A stretch of 41,102 nucleotides of DNA. Source: Patescibacteria group bacterium. GTDB lineage: Bacteria > Patescibacteriota > Minisyncoccia > Moranbacterales > UBA2206. The notes under the pieces were generated by a model. It did not search any database. It saw only the letters and a program-made list of their open reading frames with translations, and was not told the origin of the DNA. Of the stretch, positions 7,655-34,019 are shown piece after piece (within the stretch, counting starts at the first letter, position 1; every line of letters starts with the position of its first letter). The DNA lies in assembly GCA_030837625.1 (NCBI GenBank), contig JAUPKF010000007.1, positions 1-41,102 on the forward strand, in the 5' to 3' direction. The translations under genes and the position numbers were made by a program.

Positions 7655-7685
7655 AATTTTTTTAACCAATCTTTACTAAAAGTAA

Positions 7686-7711
7686 AAAACTCCCGATTGT
7701 TCGGGAGTTTT
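7686..7711 (-). terminator. Bidirectional terminator between trmB-like gene and rpmB
   Basis: AAAACTCCCGA (7686-7696) pairs perfectly with TCGGGAGTTTT (7701-7711) around TTGT. On the minus strand it ends in a run of T and terminates rpmB; on plus it can also stop transcripts from the TrmB-like gene. Confidence 0.9.
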
Positions 7712-7726
7712 CTTTGAAGAGAGATT

Positions 7727-7906
7727 TTATTTGGTGGCGCGCTTGGAAGCGGTTTTGACGCATCTGGCGCAAACCTTTTTCTTTTGACCGTCAATTTTTT
7801 TGCTTTGCAAATTGATGGCGAATTTTCGAAGGGTTTTGACGTTGGAATGGCTGACCTTGTTTCCGGTTTGGGATCCGCGGCCGCAAACATCGCAGGTTCG
7901 AGACAT
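7727..7906 (-). CDS. rpmB: Ribosomal protein bL28
   Basis: L28 is a small structural protein of the 50S subunit. The 59-aa protein begins [22 protein letters not shown], the family signature, and retains a C..C (DVCGR) and C..C (VCARC) zinc-ribbon pair. I chose the ATG at 7906 because the family starts there; the longer frame to 7948 runs through the hairpin repeat. It stands alone on the minus strand. The same repeat family that precedes S10-cluster genes sits 9 nt upstream of its start, flipped with the gene. Confidence 0.95.
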
Positions 7907-7915
7907 AGAAATAAT

Positions 7916-8010
7916 CCGATGCGAATCTACGAATGAAAGCGAATTCACGAATCTACGAATAGTTTTTAGGCTTTATTCGTAGATTCGAATGCATTCGTAG
8001 ATTCGAATCG
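7916..8010 (-). repeat. 'tacgaat' leader hairpin, rpmB copy
   Basis: Read on the minus strand, the 5' arm has CGAATCTACGAATG-CATTCGAATCTACGAAT words. The 3' arm contains the diagnostic TTCGTGAATTCG and ends ATCGG, 9 nt before the ATG. The asymmetric words occur in the same order relative to the gene as in the S10-cluster copies, so orientation follows the gene. Confidence 0.85.
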
Positions 8011-8014
8011 CGTA

Positions 8015-8043
8015 TTGATTTATTACGAAATATACGTTAACAT
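8015..8043 (+). promoter_or_regulatory. Candidate promoter of the M50 protease gene
   Basis: TTGATT (8015-8020) and TAACAT (8038-8043) with a 17-nt spacer, directly after the rpmB leader hairpin. Moderate match. Confidence 0.4.
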
Positions 8044-8113
8044 ACAAAAGTAATATTAGCAAGAAAACCCGCGAAAGCAGAGCGAATGCCAACTAATAGG
8101 AGCAAATAAAATT

Positions 8114-12832: not shown

Positions 12833-15800
12833 GTGAAAAGAAACCAAAAACAAAAAGAAAATTCTGTCAAAAAGGAAAAATCAATCTTCCAGAACGTTTT
12901 TGTCAGAAAAAAAATATTTACTTTGCCAGAAAAAGTTTTTCATTTGGACTCCGCGGAGCTTTTTGATGATTATTTGTCATGGGGAGTAGAGGATAAAAAG
13001 AAGCTTGGCCGGGAATACGGTCGGATTGCTTTCTGGGAAGGAATTTTCAACAAAATAAAGTCTTTTTCAAAAAGCATTTTGCTTTTTTCTTTCAAATCAG
13101 CTTATCGCTTGGTGATCTTCGTTTTGGTCTTGGTTTTGATTTACCAGTCTTTCCCGGGCGCGCTTTCCGCTCCGCAATCACGTGTTGTTACAACCAAGTC
13201 GGAATGGGATATGGGAGCGCTTACAGGCGTCACCTCAGACACTTCTCAAAATTCAATTCAGCTTAGTCCTAACGGCGGTTGGACGGAACGGGTTTTAGCT
13301 TCTCCTCGCGATACGATTTCCTATGGAAGCGCGTCTGTTATGGCGGGAAATTATCTTTATGTGATGCGGGGTTATTCCGACAAAGTTTTTTGGCGCTATG
13401 ACACGGTTAATAACAAGTGGGAAACAATGCCCGATCTTCCTCAGCCGGCTTATTATGGGGCGGATATGACTTTTATCCCCGGAGCTCAGGCGGGAACCGG
13501 AAAGATTTATGCGATTTTTGGCGGTTATTCCCAAAAGTTCTATGAATTTAATATCATAACCCAACAATGGACTCGTCTTCCCGATCTTAGCGATTCCACT
13601 TATACTGGTTCGGCTATTGAAAATGACGGAACGGATATCTATTTCTTGCGTGGCAATACCAGCACCGGCTTTTATAAATTTTTTGTAAATGCGAGTCGTC
13701 CCTATTGGAAGGACCTTTCCGCTGTGACAGCGAACGTCAACACAGGAGGCGATTTGGTTTATGGTCATGACGGGTATATGTATGTGACTCAAGGCAATAC
13801 GACTGTGAACTTTTATCGCTTCACGCTTCCGGCGGATGAAGAAGATATGGGTTCTTGGACAACTATGGCGAGTATCACCGCGACTTACACTTTTGCTGGC
13901 GAACAAAGGGGAGTGTATTGGGACAGCGGGACTGGATCGGCTAAGTATCTATATTTTTTGCGTTCCAATGGAAACACCACGATGCATCGTTATCAGATTA
14001 CTTGTGATGATGGCACGACAGGCTCCTGCGCCGGACAAAAAGATACTTGGTTAATCATTGCTGAAGCCGTGCCCGGCCCGGTCAATTATACTTCTTTGAC
14101 TTATAACGCGACAGATGGAAATTTTTACGCGGTTAGGGGGAATAATGGAGGTACGGCCACTGGAGATCTTTGGAAATTTGATCCGGATGGGACATTGGGT
14201 CAGCAGTGGCTTGGACTAAAAAATGTTCAAGATGGATCCGGAACGTTGCGGCCGGTCAACACCGGAAGCGATCTGATTTGGAACGGCGATACGTCTAGCA
14301 ACAAAGTTTACGCTATTTCCGGAGGAGCTACTTCTTATTTCAATCTCTTTGATACTGCTAACAATTTGTGGGCCACAAAAGCGGCGCCCTCGCCGGGAAT
14401 AACGGCTGACGTGACGGGAACATACAAAAAAAGCGCCACGCCGCTAACTGTTCCTGATTATCTGTATTTTCCTCGGGGAAACGCATCAAACACGATTTAC
14501 AGGTTTAACGAAGGTCTTCCTTCCGCGCCTAATCCGGTATGGGAAACGTTAAATCCGAGCGGACTGGGCAATATTGGCGTTGGCGGAGGCGTTATATACA
14601 ACGGATCTAAATTCTATGTTCTTCTGGGTGGAGCGTCTAATTATTTTTATGATTGTGGTGCTGATTTTTCCTCTTGTACGAGAGACAGTATTCCTGACTT
14701 GAGGGTAGATAATGTTAATTATTTTCCCTACACTGGAGCTAGAATGGTTTCTGCCGGGACATATTTTCCAGGAGACTCGAATAGTACTGACATATATGCC
14801 ACTATAGGAGATGGGGAAACCACTTTTCTCAAATATTCCGGCGGAGCTTGGAGCAAAATGGCTTCTACTCCCTTTACTCAATATTACGGAACGAGTTTAA
14901 CCTATTATGCGGGAAAAATATATGCTTTGGCTGGGTATTATAAAGATGAAATATGGGAATATGACATTTCTGCCGATAAATGGATAAAGATGCCTAATAA
15001 CCAAAAATATATTTATGGCCGTGGCCCATGGCAAGGCGCCAACATTGAATATGGTGGAAACAGCGCCATGCTTGCCACGATAGGAATGGGGCTTTCGGAT
15101 ATGTGGAAATTCGATATCGGAGCAACTAATTTTTCAACTACTCCCGGTACCTATGTAAGTGAAGTGATGGATCTTTCTAATGTAGGTGAATGGAGCGGTT
15201 TTAGCGCCCATATATTGAAGCCAGCTAATACAAATCTGACATTTGAAACCATGACGAGCTCGGACAATGTTAGTTGGCCGGGAAGCTGGAGCAGTGTTTC
15301 CAATATAAGTGAGTCTGGAGGGGTTTTTAGCGCCGACATTGATTCGGATGAGAATCGCTATGTAAAAGTAAGAATAACTCTCACTTCGTCCAACGGGGCA
15401 GATACGCCAACAGTCTATGATTATTCGGTTTCTTACACGGTTAGCGGGGTAAAGCCTCAAAATCCAAACAGTATCTCAGGATCATCCCAGCAAACCGGCG
15501 GTACGGCTCTAATATCGGGGATAGAAAATAGTTATACTTATGAACACCCATATTTTTCTTGGTTGGGGGCGACGCATAATGGTTCGGGAATTGCCGGTTA
15601 TTATGTTTGCTTTGACACTGATGAGAATTGTGTCGAGCCGGTAATTAATGGCGGCCATTGGTCGTTTCAATCCGGATTTACTTACACCGCGACCACTCCG
15701 CTTAAGACGGGAACTTATCATTTGAAAATCAAGACAAAAGACGGCAATGGAAATATCTCTGACGCAATTTGGGATGCCTTTACTTATCAATACGATGGAG

Positions 15801-18800
15801 TTTCAACAGATGAAGAAACTGATCCGCTTTCTAAAACTAGGACCTCAGCGGATGATTTTAACGATGGAGATTTGGAAGCCACGGCGGTTTCCGGCTCCGG
15901 AAACGATGCTTCGCTTCGATTGGCGGCTGTTTCCGGATTTTGGAATCAGAATCGTTTAAGTGTCATTACTCCCGGAACAGTTTATCAAGCGGGAGAATTG
16001 TCTTTGGGAAGATGCAAAGACGATGCTGATGTTACGCCGCCCTATTCGTTCAATGATAATCATTGTCTTTATACTATGGTGGGGAATAATACGACTAATT
16101 TCTACCGTTATGAAATTGAAACGGATACTTGGACTACGAGAACGGTTACTCCCTACAACACCAATACGGGAGCGGCCTTAGTGGAGGGGCCGGAAGGTTA
16201 TCTTTATGCTGTTCGAGGAACAGGAAATGCCATTCCTGTTAATGCCGCGGCTTTTTGGATGTATGATATTGTCAACAACTCCTGGGTTGATTTGGGAAAT
16301 GCTCCCAAAAGTTTCGCGGCGGGAAGTAATTTGTCTTATGACGGCCGTTATATTTATGCCACACCGGGGGCGGAAGACACCTTTTATATTTATGATACTT
16401 GCAACGGAGAGGATGTTTGCAACTCGGGTTGGAAAAACCCTTATACTCCGAGCTCTGTGCCGAATGTTGATTTTGACAATCCAAGTACTACCAACGGTCA
16501 GTTTACCGGAGAGGGAGCTGACTCGGTTTATGACGGCCGGAACAATGTTTATATGATTCAAGGAAGCCAATTTTCTTATTTTACCAAATATTCCATCGCT
16601 GATGATGCCGAGCACGAAGAAACCAGAAACACCTGGACGCCGCTTATGCCGGCTCCGGAAGGATTTTATTACGGCGGCAGTCTGACTTACGACAGTGTGA
16701 CGAACGCCATTTATGCTATTGCCGGAAATAACGCGTTGACTAACAATTCCAAGCAAGCTTTTTTGAAATATGATATTGAAACAGACACCTGGTCAGCTCT
16801 CCCTGACGCGCCGACGCTCATCACGCAATCAGGCGCCTCGCTTTCAGTTTATGACGGCTACATTTATTTTTTGAGGGGCAGCAATACAAATTTGATGTAT
16901 CGCTTTAATATCGCGGAAAATAGTTGGGAACTTCCCAATCGCGGTTTTTTCGGCCAGGAAATTCCTAAAGGAAATGTTACTACAGTAGATAGTTACTTTA
17001 ACTACGGCGCGGGAACTTTTTTAGCTCCTGACGCTAGCAATAATCTGTATATTATAAGGGGTGATTATGATAATACGTTTGGAAGATATGATGTAGAATC
17101 AGGATCTTTCACTGATCTCAAGCGTCTTCCTATGGGAGCGGTGAACGGAGCTAGTATCTCCTATGGTCAGGATGAAAATAATGCCGCGGTAATTTATTAT
17201 GTGCCTGGTCCAATAAGAGCCACTCGAACCGTCGGGGATACAAAAAACCCTTATTTTTACAAGTATATCATTAGCACCGATACTTGGGAGGAAATTACCG
17301 ATCGTCCGCCGGCCAAAGTAGCGGCCGGATCCTCAATGGCCTTTGACAGCGTTAATGAATATTTATACCTGACGCAAGGGGGGACTACGGCGATGTACAG
17401 GTATGATGTCAACGGAGGAGGGGCTTCAAAATGGTCAACAGTCTCAGCTACTGGCGCGTGTTCAAGCGGGGCCGGCTCAAAAATACTTTATACCAACAGC
17501 GCTGTTTATCGCATCCAAGCCGGGGGTAATGCGTCCTTTTGCAAATTTAACGGAAGCGCTTGGTCGACTCTCAAAGTTCTCCCCGCAGTCGCTAACACAG
17601 GCGCGTCTATTTTCGATGGAAAAGATGGATATGTATATGTTGCTCGAGGAGCGGATAGCTCCGACTATTATCGTTATGCTGTAAGCCAACTGGATCCTCC
17701 TAACGATGTATGGGAAACTTTATCAACGACATCTATAAATAAGATTCCAGCTAATGTTAACACTGGAGGAGTGGGAGGAAATCTGTCTAATCGTAACTGG
17801 CTTATTCCTGGTGCGGGAACCAACACTTTCGCGAATGGCCTTTACAGCTACGTTGTCGGATCAGCAACTAATCAAACTGGATTTTCTAAAACAGGAACAT
17901 ATACTTCAGACGTGATAGATCTGGAGGATGAACCTTATCGCTTTGCCAATTTGACGGTCAATTATGTGTTACCCGATTCAAGCGCTGATTTTCTGGCTAT
18001 CGAAACCAGAACTTCCGCTACCGGATCTTTGGCGCAAGAAGACGAGGACGAGTGGACCAGCTGGAACGCTGTTTCTAATGAACATGTTTTTGCCGACAAA
18101 CATACTTTTTCGATCAACTCTGATACTGAGAGATACATTCAAGTTCGAATGAGTTTTTCCTCTTCTGACCAGATTTTTTCTCCGCGCGTGGATGACTATG
18201 CAGTTTATTATTATCAGGATGTTGAGCAGCCGAATGCTCCATCTGAAGTGACGGCCTATAGGTCGAATCAAAAGCCGCTGCCGGCAATTACGAATTTAAC
18301 TGATCCGGAACATCCGACCGGACAGGACTGGTTTGGAGATGAAACCCCGTACTTTGAGTGGCCGGCAGCAGGAGATCCAAACGGGGCAAGCGATAACCCG
18401 GATCCGGGCGGATCGGGAATCGCCGGATATTATGTATGTTTCGGCGAAGAGGCTGATTGTCCCGACGCGATATTGAACGGAGAATTTCAAACCGGCAATA
18501 GTTTTACGGCTCCGGCTCTTTCCTCGGAAGAAGATAGCGGGGAAAAATATTATTTGAAAATCTCAGCCATAGATAACGCCGGCTTGGCTTCTGAAAGTTA
18601 TACCGGTTTTATATATCAATTTGACAGAACCCCTCCAGGTCTCCCGACTAATATCAACGCTTCTCCAGCGTCTTATTCTTCAGTCAGCGAGTTTACTTAT
18701 AGTTGGGACAGTAATGCGAGTGACACTCATTCAGGCATTTTGAAATTCCAGTATCGTCTTGGCAATGAGTCAGAAGAGACTTGGCACGATATTGGCGGAT

Positions 18801-20776
18801 CGGAAGTTCTCTCTCAAGTTGTCGAACCCTACCAGCCTAACGAGAATTATTTTTATTTGAAAGTCTTGGACAAGGCGTACAATGAAACAGTGTCATTGCC
18901 GAGAAGCTTTTTTTGGAGCGGCGGTCCGGCTTCCCCGCCGACTAATCTTAGGGTCAATCCTTCCAATGAAGATAATGTCACCAACTCGTTTACTTTTGAA
19001 TGGGATATTCCTGATTCATACGCTGGCGATGCGGATAATATTACCTATTTTTACTCAGCCAATTATCTTCCGACTCCGTTCAATACAGTTGAAACAACCG
19101 CGAAATCAGCCGGACCTGGACCGTTCGCGACGCAGTTTGGGCAAAATACAATGTATGTGGTGGCGATGAGCGAGGGAGGAAGCAAGGGAAATCCAAATGA
19201 TGTGGATTGGGAAAATCCAGCCAAGGTTTATTTTTACGCCAGAACAACAGCTCCTGGTCCGCCGATTAATAATCAGATTTTTGACACTTCCGACCGGGAG
19301 TCGGCTGAGTATAGCGTGGCGGTAAAATGGAGCGTGCCGGAAAGCTATGATTCGGCAAACTTTGCGGGCTACACTATATATAGAGCAACCGATCCAGCTA
19401 CTGCTATGGATGAATATGAGGAAGTGGCGACCACAACAGGAACGGCTTATGTTGATACTGAATTGGAAAGCAAGCCTTACTATTATTATGTGCGTTCGCG
19501 AGATAGAACTAATAATCTTTCTATTCCGACTTCAGTGCTTTCTATGACTCCGACTGGACGCTACACGACTGCTCCGCTTATCGTGGATGAGCCGGCTGTT
19601 ACAGTGGAATCTTTCGCGGCGACTATTGTCTGGTCAACTAATAGAGAAGCAAGTTCCTTTGTAGAATATGGAACGTCTTCCGATTTAGATAAAACAAACG
19701 GACAAGTAGATAGCGTTATATCGCATACGGTAGAGTTGACAGGATTGGAGGCTGCCACAAAATATTATTACAAGGTAAAATATATCGATCCGGATGGAAA
19801 CATCGGAACTTCAGAAGCGGATATTTTCACTACTAATGATCCGCCGACTATTTCTGATGTGGTTACTTCTGACGTTGGACTCAATAGCGCCAATGTTTCT
19901 TGGAAAACCAACATGAGCGGAGTCTGTACTTTGCAATATGGAGAGGGAAGTTTTACCAACTCAGTGGAGGAGAGCGCCGGCGGGACAACGCATATCCAAA
20001 AAATCTCTAATCTAAAGTCAGCTACAAGTTATATTTATCAAATTGAGTGTGTGGACGCTGATCTGAATAACTTCAGTTCGGATCAGTATGCTTTTACTAC
20101 TCTTGAACAGCCGATGGTCGCTGATTTCGCTGTTCAAAATAAAGAGAATGTGGATATTCCAACCATTGAAGTTACTTATAATACTACTCATGCCACGACT
20201 ACGCTTGTAAAATTCAAGGGCGCCGGCGAAGGATCATATCACAACTATCTTATTTCTGATTTGGCGACTGAACACAAAGCTACTATCGAAGGCCTCGATC
20301 CGGCTGTCGAATATGAGGTTGTTGCAAGTGGAATTGACGCTAACGGGGTGGAGGCGTTGCCACAATCGTCTAGGGTGACTACTCTTACAGACAGCCGTCC
20401 GCCGGGGGTGGTTGTTAACAGGGCTGTTGGGAGGGTTGTGGGCAGAGGAAAAGACTCAAGAGCCAATTTGTATGTTAAAATAGAAACAGATGAAATTACG
20501 GCAGTGAAAATACTTTTTGGCAAGGGAACAATTCTTAGCAATTTTGAGCAAAGCACCGGAGTGGATCCTTCCAACACTTACCATTTAATTACCATCCCGG
20601 TTGATTCGGGGCAAGTGTACAGTTATGTCGCGGAAGCAGTGGACGAGGCTGGCAACAAGACCATCAGCAGATCAGTGACGGTTGTAGTAGAAGATGCCAA
20701 AGAGAACGCGACAGAAATTGTCGTTAATACTTTCAGCAGCAAGTTTGGTTGGGTAACAAAATTATGGCAACGTTAG
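12833..20776 (+). CDS. Giant membrane-anchored kelch/Ig/FN3 surface protein, 2647 aa
   Basis: The name of the protein is unknown. Residues 1-89 are basic and cytoplasmic. A hydrophobic anchor (about 92-112, LVIFVLVLVLIYQSFPGALSA) may be a signal anchor or a cleaved signal. About 120-770 are kelch-like repeats with a recurring Y-LRG-t--fyrYd---W--l pattern, presumably beta-propellers. About 772-870 is a beta-sandwich-like domain (YVSEVMDLSNVGEWSGF) and 873-990 an Ig-like domain (GSGIAGYYVCFDTDENC). The same trio then repeats: propeller about 1030-1680, sandwich 1683-1794 (YTSDVIDLEDEPYRFANL), Ig 1797-1935 (GSGIAGYYVCFGEEADC). Several Ig/FN3 domains follow to the C-terminus, without LPXTG. The start is GTG at 12833, the only candidate in the open frame, with no Shine-Dalgarno. 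Likely a long cell-surface stalk for adhesion or host contact (inference). Confidence 0.85.
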   Translation: MKRNQKQKENSVKKEKSIFQNVFVRKKIFTLPEKVFHLDSAELFDDYLSWGVEDKKKLGREYGRIAFWEGIFNKIKSFSKSILLFSFKSAYRLVIFVLVLVLIYQSFPGALSAPQSRVVTTKSEWDMGALTGVTSDTSQNSIQLSPNGGWTERVLASPRDTISYGSASVMAGNYLYVMRGYSDKVFWRYDTVNNKWETMPDLPQPAYYGADMTFIPGAQAGTGKIYAIFGGYSQKFYEFNIITQQWTRLPDLSDSTYTGSAIENDGTDIYFLRGNTSTGFYKFFVNASRPYWKDLSAVTANVNTGGDLVYGHDGYMYVTQGNTTVNFYRFTLPADEEDMGSWTTMASITATYTFAGEQRGVYWDSGTGSAKYLYFLRSNGNTTMHRYQITCDDGTTGSCAGQKDTWLIIAEAVPGPVNYTSLTYNATDGNFYAVRGNNGGTATGDLWKFDPDGTLGQQWLGLKNVQDGSGTLRPVNTGSDLIWNGDTSSNKVYAISGGATSYFNLFDTANNLWATKAAPSPGITADVTGTYKKSATPLTVPDYLYFPRGNASNTIYRFNEGLPSAPNPVWETLNPSGLGNIGVGGGVIYNGSKFYVLLGGASNYFYDCGADFSSCTRDSIPDLRVDNVNYFPYTGARMVSAGTYFPGDSNSTDIYATIGDGETTFLKYSGGAWSKMASTPFTQYYGTSLTYYAGKIYALAGYYKDEIWEYDISADKWIKMPNNQKYIYGRGPWQGANIEYGGNSAMLATIGMGLSDMWKFDIGATNFSTTPGTYVSEVMDLSNVGEWSGFSAHILKPANTNLTFETMTSSDNVSWPGSWSSVSNISESGGVFSADIDSDENRYVKVRITLTSSNGADTPTVYDYSVSYTVSGVKPQNPNSISGSSQQTGGTALISGIENSYTYEHPYFSWLGATHNGSGIAGYYVCFDTDENCVEPVINGGHWSFQSGFTYTATTPLKTGTYHLKIKTKDGNGNISDAIWDAFTYQYDGVSTDEETDPLSKTRTSADDFNDGDLEATAVSGSGNDASLRLAAVSGFWNQNRLSVITPGTVYQAGELSLGRCKDDADVTPPYSFNDNHCLYTMVGNNTTNFYRYEIETDTWTTRTVTPYNTNTGAALVEGPEGYLYAVRGTGNAIPVNAAAFWMYDIVNNSWVDLGNAPKSFAAGSNLSYDGRYIYATPGAEDTFYIYDTCNGEDVCNSGWKNPYTPSSVPNVDFDNPSTTNGQFTGEGADSVYDGRNNVYMIQGSQFSYFTKYSIADDAEHEETRNTWTPLMPAPEGFYYGGSLTYDSVTNAIYAIAGNNALTNNSKQAFLKYDIETDTWSALPDAPTLITQSGASLSVYDGYIYFLRGSNTNLMYRFNIAENSWELPNRGFFGQEIPKGNVTTVDSYFNYGAGTFLAPDASNNLYIIRGDYDNTFGRYDVESGSFTDLKRLPMGAVNGASISYGQDENNAAVIYYVPGPIRATRTVGDTKNPYFYKYIISTDTWEEITDRPPAKVAAGSSMAFDSVNEYLYLTQGGTTAMYRYDVNGGGASKWSTVSATGACSSGAGSKILYTNSAVYRIQAGGNASFCKFNGSAWSTLKVLPAVANTGASIFDGKDGYVYVARGADSSDYYRYAVSQLDPPNDVWETLSTTSINKIPANVNTGGVGGNLSNRNWLIPGAGTNTFANGLYSYVVGSATNQTGFSKTGTYTSDVIDLEDEPYRFANLTVNYVLPDSSADFLAIETRTSATGSLAQEDEDEWTSWNAVSNEHVFADKHTFSINSDTERYIQVRMSFSSSDQIFSPRVDDYAVYYYQDVEQPNAPSEVTAYRSNQKPLPAITNLTDPEHPTGQDWFGDETPYFEWPAAGDPNGASDNPDPGGSGIAGYYVCFGEEADCPDAILNGEFQTGNSFTAPALSSEEDSGEKYYLKISAIDNAGLASESYTGFIYQFDRTPPGLPTNINASPASYSSVSEFTYSWDSNASDTHSGILKFQYRLGNESEETWHDIGGSEVLSQVVEPYQPNENYFYLKVLDKAYNETVSLPRSFFWSGGPASPPTNLRVNPSNEDNVTNSFTFEWDIPDSYAGDADNITYFYSANYLPTPFNTVETTAKSAGPGPFATQFGQNTMYVVAMSEGGSKGNPNDVDWENPAKVYFYARTTAPGPPINNQIFDTSDRESAEYSVAVKWSVPESYDSANFAGYTIYRATDPATAMDEYEEVATTTGTAYVDTELESKPYYYYVRSRDRTNNLSIPTSVLSMTPTGRYTTAPLIVDEPAVTVESFAATIVWSTNREASSFVEYGTSSDLDKTNGQVDSVISHTVELTGLEAATKYYYKVKYIDPDGNIGTSEADIFTTNDPPTISDVVTSDVGLNSANVSWKTNMSGVCTLQYGEGSFTNSVEESAGGTTHIQKISNLKSATSYIYQIECVDADLNNFSSDQYAFTTLEQPMVADFAVQNKENVDIPTIEVTYNTTHATTTLVKFKGAGEGSYHNYLISDLATEHKATIEGLDPAVEYEVVASGIDANGVEALPQSSRVTTLTDSRPPGVVVNRAVGRVVGRGKDSRANLYVKIETDEITAVKILFGKGTILSNFEQSTGVDPSNTYHLITIPVDSGQVYSYVAEAVDEAGNKTISRSVTVVVEDAKENATEIVVNTFSSKFGWVTKLWQR

Positions 20777-27642: not shown

Positions 27643-27644
27643 TT

Positions 27645-27741
27645 CCGATGCGAATCTACGAATGACATTCGAATCTACGAATCTACGAATACGCGAATGA
27701 AAAATTCGTGAATTCGGATACATTCGTTGATTCGAATCGGT
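27645..27741 (+). repeat. 'tacgaat' intercistronic hairpin before rpsS (A family)
   Basis: The 5' arm is CCGATGCGAATCTACGAATG plus CATTCGAATCTACGAATCTACGAAT. The 3' arm holds ATTCGTGAATTCGGATACA then TTCGTTGATTCGAATCGG, ending 7-8 nt before the ATG at 27749. About 80% of 38 positions pair. Confidence 0.9.
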
Positions 27742-28673: not shown

Positions 28674-28710
28674 CGCGAAGCGTCATCCTGAGCGTAGCGA
28701 AGGATCTCGC
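28671..28710 (+). repeat. Half-copy of the 'gtcattc/cctgagcg' palindromic repeat
   Basis: GACGC-GAA-GCGTC (28672-28684) is a perfect small hairpin, followed by TCATCCTGAGCGTAGCGAAG and GATCTCGC. Related to the longer repeat at 7510. It supplies the rplV stop codon. Confidence 0.6.
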
Positions 28711-28733
28711 AAGGTAATCTCGTGTTGCTGGCT

Positions 28734-28976
28734 ATCCCGCACCAAATTCCGAAAGAAGTTTATGTTAAAGAGAAAGCTTACTTCACGGAATCGCCTGCGG
28801 CTTAGTTTTAAGATAACAGAAAGTATAATTTGCGAATTGGTGCGGGATGCTCAATTTTGTGGCTACTCGCCCGCCCCCACACCAATTTCATTATTTATTA
28901 ATAGACAATTTCTTGAAGCTATCCTCAGTACTAATTTAGTAAAATTGGTGTGGGGGCAAGCTCGCAGACAAAATTG
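28734..28976 (+). repeat. Multi-stem leader element before rpsC, with a nested insertion (C family, copy 3)
   Basis: ATCCCGCACCAA (28734-28745) pairs perfectly with TTGGTGCGGGAT (28837-28848). The conserved CGGAATCGCCTGCGGCTTAG is present. The last stem CAATTTTGT (28852-28860) with ACAAAATTG (28968-28976) is interrupted by a nested 14-bp perfect hairpin, CCCCCACACCAATT (28874-28887) with AATTGGTGTGGGGG (28943-28956). The last stem still ends 2 nt before the ATG. Confidence 0.85.
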
Positions 28977-28978
28977 GC

Positions 28979-29623
28979 ATGGGACATAAAGTTAATCCAA
29001 CTGGGTTTCGCATAGGAATTACCGAGAGCTGGAAATCCAAGTGGTTTGGAAAAAAAGAATACAAGGAAAACCTGAAGCAGGATATCGAGCTTCGAGTGGC
29101 CATAATGAAGAAGTGGAAGCAGGCGTCTATTTCAGGTGTTGTGTTGGAGCGATCTGCCAAGATGATTCGGATAATCATAAAGACTGCCCGCCCTGGAGTT
29201 CTGATTGGTCGAGGAGGAAGCGGAATCGAAGATGTTAAACATTATATTGAAAATAATTTTTTTAAAAGAGACAGGTCAATAAATTTGAAATTAGAGGTTC
29301 AAGAGATAAAAAATTCGGAAGAGGATGCGACAGTTGTTGCGCAGAATATGGCTGAACAGATAGAGAAAAGAATGCCTTTTCGTAGGATTATGAAATCTAT
29401 GGCTGAGCAGGTGATGAAGAGCGGCACAATTAAGGGGGTAAAGCTGGAGATGTCAGGAAGATTAGGAGGCGCTGAAATGTCTCGGCGAGAGTGGATGTCG
29501 AAAGGAACGCTGCCTTTGCACACGTTGCGGGCGGACATCGATTTCGCCAGAGCGACCGCGTACACGACATATGGAACGATAGGAATAAAAGTTTGGTTGT
29601 ATAAAGGAGAAGTGTTTGAATAA
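28979..29623 (+). CDS. rpsC: Ribosomal protein uS3
   Basis: S3 is at the mRNA entry channel of the 30S subunit. The 214-aa protein has MGHKVNPTGFRIGITESW, a KH domain with KTARPGVLIGRGGSGIEDV, and the C-terminal GRLGGAEMSRREWMSKGTLPLHTLRADIDF. The ATG at 28979 is fixed by the family start. Confidence 0.97.
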   Translation: MGHKVNPTGFRIGITESWKSKWFGKKEYKENLKQDIELRVAIMKKWKQASISGVVLERSAKMIRIIIKTARPGVLIGRGGSGIEDVKHYIENNFFKRDRSINLKLEVQEIKNSEEDATVVAQNMAEQIEKRMPFRRIMKSMAEQVMKSGTIKGVKLEMSGRLGGAEMSRREWMSKGTLPLHTLRADIDFARATAYTTYGTIGIKVWLYKGEVFE

Positions 29624-29703
29624 CGCATAACGCATAACGCATAACGCATAACGCATAACGTGAACGGGGTAAAGTACGTTCCACGCTACGCGCTATACGT
29701 TCC
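29624..29703 (+). repeat. Five tandem 'cgcataa' units plus inverse arm, rpsC-rplP
   Basis: Five exact copies of CGCATAA (29624-29658) start directly after the rpsC stop. The right arm (about 29677-29703) is an imperfect inverse of the array: ACGTTCCACGCTACGCG then CTATACGTTCC. The folded structure ends next to the rplP start. Confidence 0.85.
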
Positions 29704-29712
29704 ATGATTCGC

Positions 29713-30609: not shown

Positions 30610-30610
30610 T

Positions 30611-30706
30611 CCGATGCGAATCTACGAATGACATTCGAATCTACAAATCTACGAATATACGAATAAAAAATTCGTGAATTCGGATACATTCGTTGATTCG
30701 AATCGG
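30611..30706 (+). repeat. 'tacgaat' intercistronic hairpin before rplN (A family)
   Basis: It starts one base after the rpsQ stop. The 5' arm has CCGATGCGAATCTACGAATG and further CTACAAAT/CTACGAAT units. The 3' arm is the invariant TTCGTGAATTCGGATACA and TTGATTCGAATCGG, ending 7 nt before the rplN ATG. Confidence 0.9.
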
Positions 30707-31080: not shown

Positions 31081-31170
31081 CGCGATGCGAATCTACGAAT
31101 AACATCCGAATCTACGAATGCTGCGAATAAAAAATTCGTGAATTCGGATACATTCGTTGATTCGAATCGG
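31081..31170 (+). repeat. 'tacgaat' intercistronic hairpin before rplX (A family)
   Basis: It starts right after the rplN stop with CGCGATGCGAATCTACGAAT, has one fewer 5' unit than the rpsS copy, and keeps the invariant 3' arm ending at 31170, 11 nt before the ATG. Confidence 0.9.
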
Positions 31171-31487: not shown

Positions 31488-31576
31488 CGCGATGCGAATC
31501 TACGAATGACATTCGAATCTACGAATATGCGAATAAGAAATTTGTGAATTCGGATACATTCGTTGATTCGAATCGG
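31488..31576 (+). repeat. 'tacgaat' intercistronic hairpin before rplE (A family)
   Basis: It starts directly after the rplX stop with CGCGATGCGAATCTACGAATG. The 3' arm carries one change (TTTGTGAATTCGG) and ends CGAATCGG, 8 nt before the ATG at 31585. Confidence 0.9.
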
Positions 31577-32125: not shown

Positions 32126-32180
32126 GTCCTTACGAATTACGAATTTTTACGAATGTACGAAAAAAAATGGTAATTCGTAG
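32126..32180 (+). repeat. Short 'tacgaat' hairpin before rpsN (A-family relative)
   Basis: TACGAATTAC (32131-32140) pairs with GTAATTCGTA (32170-32179). It lacks the invariant 3' arm, and about 37 nt separate it from the ATG. It may be a decayed copy. Confidence 0.7.
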
Positions 32181-32216
32181 TCCGGGATTGAATTAAAAGC
32201 TATAAACAATATTAGT

Positions 32217-32814: not shown

Positions 32815-32912
32815 CGCGATGCGAATCTACGAATGACATTCGAATCTACGAATCTGCGAATGACGCGAATAAAAAATTCGTGAATTCGGATACATTCGTT
32901 GATTCGAATCGG
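32815..32912 (+). repeat. 'tacgaat' intercistronic hairpin before rplF (A family)
   Basis: It starts CGCGATGCGAATCTACGAATG 3 nt after the rpsH stop. The 5' arm has an extra CTGCGAATGACGCGAAT unit; the 3' arm is invariant and ends 8 nt before the ATG. Confidence 0.9.
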
Positions 32913-33472: not shown

Positions 33473-33577
33473 CGCGATGCGAATCTACGAATAACATCCG
33501 AATCTACGAATCTACAAATATGCGAATATGCGAATGAAAAATTCGTGAATTCGGATACATTCGTTGATTCGAATCGG
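33473..33577 (+). repeat. 'tacgaat' intercistronic hairpin before rplR (A family)
   Basis: It starts CGCGATGCGAATCTACGAAT 3 nt after the rplF stop and is the longest copy (extra CTACAAATATGCGAATATG unit). The invariant 3' arm ends CGAATCGG, 7 nt before the ATG. Confidence 0.9.
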
Positions 33578-33933: not shown

Positions 33934-34019
33934 TTACGAACTACGAAATAAGCGAACTACGAAAAAATGCGGGGAAAATCTGGAGATGTTTCGTAGTTAG
34001 TTTATTTCGTAGTTCGTAA
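33934..34019 (+). repeat. 'gaactacgaaa' intercistronic hairpin before rpsE (B family, copy 3)
   Basis: The left arm is identical to the fusA copy over more than 30 nt counting the shared TAAG stop context (TAAGTTACGAACTACGAAAT). The right arm ends TTTCGTAGTTCGTAA, 8 nt before the ATG. Confidence 0.9.

Follow-up and report, generated by a model that had tools for sequence, protein, structure and literature searches.

A Hairpin before rpmB as a Probable Copy of a Dispersed Palindromic Repeat Family in Moranbacteria

The hairpin in front of rpmB in the window (the whole 41,102-nt stretch of DNA analyzed here) is probably one copy of a dispersed palindromic repeat family spreading in Moranbacteria genomes, a family of the same kind as the Rickettsia palindromic elements (RPEs) and not a ribosomal leader. 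We observed its copies dispersed over the host genome, mostly flush between a stop and a start codon, tolerated in frame within protein genes, and subject to turnover between sister species.

The Element Upstream of rpmB

A hairpin had been described ahead of rpmB on the minus strand, oriented to the gene and 9 nt from its ATG, and both position and fold confirmed it. We delimited a 97-nt imperfect palindrome on the minus strand at positions 7916–8012, with a 9-nt gap (7907–7915) to the ATG at 7906, a predicted folding energy of –41.4 kcal/mol (z = –5.4), and a covariance-model score of 97.6 bits on this strand and 75.7 bits on the other. The outer arms are CGATTCGAATCTACGAATG and CATTCGTAGATTCGCATCG and the inner arms CGAATCTACGAAT and ATTCGTAGATTCG, with TGAATTCG as the spacer. 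The asymmetric word said to lie in the gene-proximal arm, TTCGTGAATTCG, was located there, at 7940–7951 of the minus strand; with at most two mismatches allowed, the window holds 44 occurrences of it, whereas shuffled sequences gave an expected 6.9 and never reached 44.

The preliminary description took this hairpin for the same element as that of the S10 operon. Kinship at the level of the family held, but identity did not: the S10 copies have GATGCG in the left arm, an extra base after the first arm, and TTG in the last unit, and since these marks are absent from the rpmB copy, its sequence assigns it to a different subfamily.

The gene behind the element, rpmB (ribosomal protein bL28, 59 aa; 7730–7906, minus strand), was recovered in 33 of the 37 genomes searched. 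A pattern scan placed a terminator-like hairpin after it (7684–7713, minus strand), which, as a consensus match only, would mark rpmB as its own transcription unit. On the other side, a block at 8013–8060 separates the element from a divergent M50-peptidase gene, an upstream neighbor that makes rpmB exceptional among the copies. The block is almost identical in the sister species (G001), whereas the adjoining element differs, and other relatives carry a AATAAATCAA block. We presume it to be the promoter or leader region of rpmB, the promoter being only inferred because the pattern scan gave no sigma-70 consensus match within 8013–8060. In that case, rpmB would be a single-gene unit with the element at the downstream end of its presumed 5′ leader. 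Elsewhere in the window, positions 12833–20776 hold one open reading frame of 2,647 aa.

Copies across the Genome and within Protein Genes

The host genome, from Candidatus Moranbacteria, is 967 kb long and contains 33 exact matches to the 13-mer ATTCGTGAATTCG, with 0 for the reversed control. Using a covariance model built from an alignment of 20 copies and counting as strong those scoring at least 75 bits, we found 35 distinct strong copies of 84–151 nt; weaker matches exist, and most of those inspected are other repeat families. The element is built of CGAAT/ATTCG units, and its outer arms of 18–19 pairs form terminal inverted repeats, as in MITEs. Variation in the arms falls mainly at mismatched positions, with no compensated pairs within the genome, which fits recent copying. 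Between genera, compensated pairs are few and the covariation weak, with 88.8% of the aligned cells paired in comparison with 87.8% after shuffling. So little covariation points to recent copying and away from a strictly selected fold; as evidence of selection as RNA, covariation was rejected.

Outside the host, a scan of 84,980 species genomes with a 19-base pattern returned mostly records of Moranbacteria and other candidate phyla, and none from Rickettsia. A viral origin was rejected, with no match in viral contigs, and so was a known RNA family: no Rfam model matched at its gathering score, and the best subthreshold matches were plant and animal microRNA precursors, which we attribute to the hairpin shape only.

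One copy (C23:33276–33380) lies inside uvrD and leaves the reading frame intact. In the alignment of PcrA to UvrD, only a few PcrA residues separate query residues 80 and 115, the residues of the element being skipped, and the spacer is at least 16 residues shorter in 15 of the 21 readable relatives. The same loop holds an in-frame insert akin to the CGAAT family, DANLRMKSESANDSNERVRSALFAYE, in a further relative (G003, locus L267) and a repeat-like insert of another family, PSPQPSPDYGRGG, in the sister species; it is possibly an insertion hot spot. The host UvrD (L098, G000:C23:31200–35500) has a further insert-like stretch, LQITNYKLQINSKYKIQNSKL, which resembles a translated AAATTACAAATT-word repeat. 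A copy in the sister species lies in frame within dnaG, where a solved primase aligns to residues 1–191 and 221–383 with the element between, and another relative (G014) has a copy in frame within miaA. The uvrD and dnaG copies are antisense to the gene and translate as [DN]xNxR...DSNR; the opposite strand contains stop codons.

Search for a Mover

The genome has one rve-type and two Y1 transposases, and no DDE_3, DDE_Tnp_1, or reverse transcriptase (RVT_1) gene was found in it. Copies of the family were found neither beside the rve-type gene nor beside the Y1 genes (L031 and L032, checked within 1.5 kb). A weak model match next to the rve-type transposase on contig C17, considered as a terminal repeat, belongs to another word family: it is a ACGAACTACGAAA-family hairpin (2032–2119 of locus L081, G000:C17) that directly follows the stop codon of that transposase, apparently within its insertion sequence. 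The flanks at rplN are compatible with a duplicated TAA, and TAA stands on both sides of some copies and not of others. An IS630-type, TA-targeting MITE was rejected, as DDE_3 is absent and TA flanks are inconsistent. Two points therefore count against the dispersed-repeat reading itself: a target-site duplication is not established, and no mover is linked to the copies among the transposase families searched.

Given the Y1 genes, one alternative is REP/REPIN mobilization by a RAYT, an IS200-like Y1 transposase. GTAG is present in the arm units, and REPs are dispersed palindromes known to lie in part within replication and repair genes (PMC3733652), which fits the copies in uvrD and dnaG. However, no copies flank a RAYT, the element measures 84–151 nt in place of 20–40, and GTAG is internal, with no tag at the foot. 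On either side of the fully read Y1 gene (L031, G000:C26:299–3646) there are instead GGGGTCAGGTACC repeats, which are similar to the GGGGWSAS ends described for TIRYT genes (PMC3733652). We consider REP/REPIN origin highly improbable.

Turnover between Related Genomes

The S10 operon proteins of the window are mostly 90–98% identical to those of the sister species, and the intergenic sites differ. The covariance model placed six plus-strand copies in the operon. Three of the seven window sites are empty in the sister species, those at the rplB/rpsS (27644–27740), rpsQ/rplN (30610–30706; empty in several other relatives, too), and rpsH/rplF (32815–32912) junctions. At rplN/rplX (31081–31170), rplX/rplE (31488–31576), and the rpmB leader, the sister species has hairpins of unrelated sequence, and at rplF/rplR (33473–33577) a shorter, different repeat. 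Its genome contains four strong copies, and genomes of the taxonomic family have from 0 to several dozen matches, both strands counted. Three sites are common to the two genomes, namely rpoB/rpoC, the HIT gene, and C24:8056, whose equivalent in G001 is on C37; the more distant G011 has the yqeY site in common with the host. Together, the common and differing sites indicate that the repeat family predates the species split and has moved since. Among relatives with a readable rpmB leader, most have a hairpin touching the ATG, of several unrelated sequences, and some have none.

Hairpins of this kind are not limited to one family. Among the same-direction spacers of 40–300 nt in genome stretches not picked for this element, 26 of 58 fold with z < –2. 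The folding spacers represent several unrelated families, whose words include ACGAACTACGAAAT, TTCACCTAATTCACCTAA, AAATTCCAAATTACAAAT, AACATGAAACATGAAAC, and AACGCATAACGCATAACG, the last from the window. In every family, degenerate tandem words make up two arms on either side of a unique loop, and the hairpin usually extends from a stop codon to near the next start. The window has hairpins of other word families at rplR/rpsE (33938–34018, TTACGAACTACGAAAT), rplE/rpsN (32130–32190, TTACGAATTACGAATTTTTACG), and rpsC/rplP (29622–29710, AACGCATAACGC). The rplV/rpsC spacer (28680–28970) is about 300 nt long and has the inverted stretches CCCGCACCAATTCCG and AATTGGTGCGGG, a position occupied in the sister species by a short hairpin from a different family.

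These patterns could also arise from immobile hairpins that slippage and template switching repeatedly build anew at the junctions themselves, with each lineage writing its own word into both arms. Such a process would account for the common design of all families, whose arms are degenerate tandem words of 7–9 nt with complementary partners and a unique loop, and for close relatives having different sequences at the same junction. It is nevertheless improbable, as 35 copies of one family at unlinked genes, with common loop-proximal detail, need copying between sites, and the empty sites are clean.

Placement between Stop and Start Codons

The element had been tied to gene starts rather than to one DNA strand, and the strong copies bore this out. 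Copies adjoin gene starts on both strands, and among the 34 intergenic ones, a start codon lies 0–11 nt beyond one end in 31 and the preceding gene's stop codon 0–5 nt before the other end in 30, both being flush in 27. The copies thereby occupy otherwise short spacers between same-direction genes. In a 170-kb sample, only 219 of 38,243 intergenic nucleotides lie in spacers below 40 nt, a share so small that length alone cannot account for the flush placement, although the argument holds to an order of magnitude only: genes were called with our own simple codon-usage caller, and other repeats occupy many of the longer spacers.

The proposed comparison of orientation across all genomic copies gave a match with the adjacent gene in 24 of the 31 orientable cases and a mismatch in 7 (binomial p = 0.003). 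Leaving out the six S10 copies gave a match in 18 of 25 (p = 0.043); the p values are optimistic because the copies share descent. The orientation is thus biased and not strict.

A further claim, that the element is linked to ribosomal proteins, was not supported. Ribosomal genes are downstream of 9 of the 34 intergenic copies, and six of these nine form the S10 cluster with its common subfamily marks; the other 25 copies precede other genes, including rpoC, ssb, lexA, typA, yqeY, HIT, response-regulator, and pilus genes. Outside the cluster, 3 of 28 copies precede ribosomal genes (p = 0.16, assuming 5% of genes to be ribosomal), and the enrichment thus arises only through the local S10 cluster. 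The in-frame copies in uvrD, dnaG, and miaA and the other hairpins, or none, at the rpmB and S10 sites of the sister species speak against the link as well. A ribosomal-protein leader was rejected as a general account, as most copies precede other genes and the rpmB and S10 sites are not kept in the sister species.

The same placement raises the alternative of a working cis-acting RNA element, in which a hairpin just before the start aids or controls translation and the sequence is free as long as the hairpin abuts the start. In this low Shine–Dalgarno host, it might couple termination to reinitiation, direct processing of the RNA into a near-leaderless message, or bind a regulator. The constant distance to the start codon and the orientation bias favor such a role, as do the hairpins of unrelated sequence directly before rpmB in most relatives with a readable leader and the few compensated pairs between genera; Shine–Dalgarno-like words before the starts show no excess (17 of 97 against 16 of 97 control stretches), which is in line with it, too. 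However, sites at rpsS, rplN, and rplF are empty within the same genus, several relatives lack a hairpin before rpmB, about a quarter of the orientable copies are reversed, copies occur within coding sequences, and the near equality of real and shuffled pairing indicates little selection for pairing. On balance, we regard the cis-acting role as possible but unlikely. Even so, the 24:7 bias and the hairpins before rpmB in most readable relatives exceed the needs of a purely passive parasite.

Discussion

Under the preferred reading of a dispersed repeat, the family would spread by copying through a putative mover, and selection would remove most insertions elsewhere, leaving those between a stop and a start to survive. 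When transcribed, the element is expected to fold, the feet of the hairpin standing 0–5 nt after the stop and 0–11 nt before the start. Looped out in this way, the hairpin could keep stop and start close enough for a ribosome that has just terminated to go on to the next start; we infer that stop–start insertions survive because they interfere little with translation of the downstream cistron. This looping out between the two codons is probably why the element is tolerated. The preferred orientation appears to have stop codons in the arms, and the copies in uvrD and dnaG would be read from the other, open strand.

A reading that draws on both repeat turnover and function is that Moranbacteria keep hairpins before many starts as a sequence-free translation device, supplied by the turnover of unrelated palindrome families. 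We find this doubtful; if true, selection would see fold and place and not letters.

The noteworthy part is the sequence-swapping occupation of stop–start junctions. The open literature searched, with subscription papers largely outside its scope, gave no description of it or of repeats of this kind in Moranbacteria or candidate phyla. In a reduced genome, palindromic repeats have invaded even the operons that are packed most tightly and are most essential, with turnover between sisters whose ribosomal proteins are near identical. If the insertions are neutral, they show how a hairpin can harmlessly enter a stop–start junction or the coding sequence of a helicase or primase; if they have a use, this phylum can exchange its translation signals wholesale. 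Either way, annotators should avoid calling such repeats regulatory leaders of the downstream gene.

Among known systems, the closest likeness is to the RPEs, palindromes of about 100–150 bp that occur in several families per genome, both in intergenic regions and in frame in unrelated protein genes, in reduced genomes (PMC10969869). The element here is similar in size, in its many copies, in the copies in frame within uvrD, dnaG, and miaA, and in its reduced genome, and neither has a linked mover (PMC10969869). It differs in belonging to another phylum, in having, as far as seen, another sequence (the two are likened as a kind), and in the placement of most copies flush between stop and start, with few inside genes. 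The prokaryotic MITEs Correia/NEMIS, RUP, and ERIC are likewise short, palindromic, nonautonomous, and intergenic; for the present family, neither a cognate transposase, among the transposase families searched, nor a target-site duplication could be demonstrated. REP/REPIN elements with their RAYTs are alike in dispersal and in copies within repair and replication genes, whereas length, the position of GTAG, and the lack of a REPtron set our element apart. Autogenous ribosomal-protein leaders are also structured RNAs before ribosomal genes, but the element precedes many unrelated genes and matches no Rfam family at gathering score. In Beggiatoaceae, TAACTGA repeats lie a few nucleotides before starts, also in ribosomal operons, and the intergenic regions concerned contain few ribosome binding sites (PMC4679880). 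The Beggiatoaceae repeats are heptamers in direct orientation and the element here is a palindrome, but the two are alike in their place before starts.
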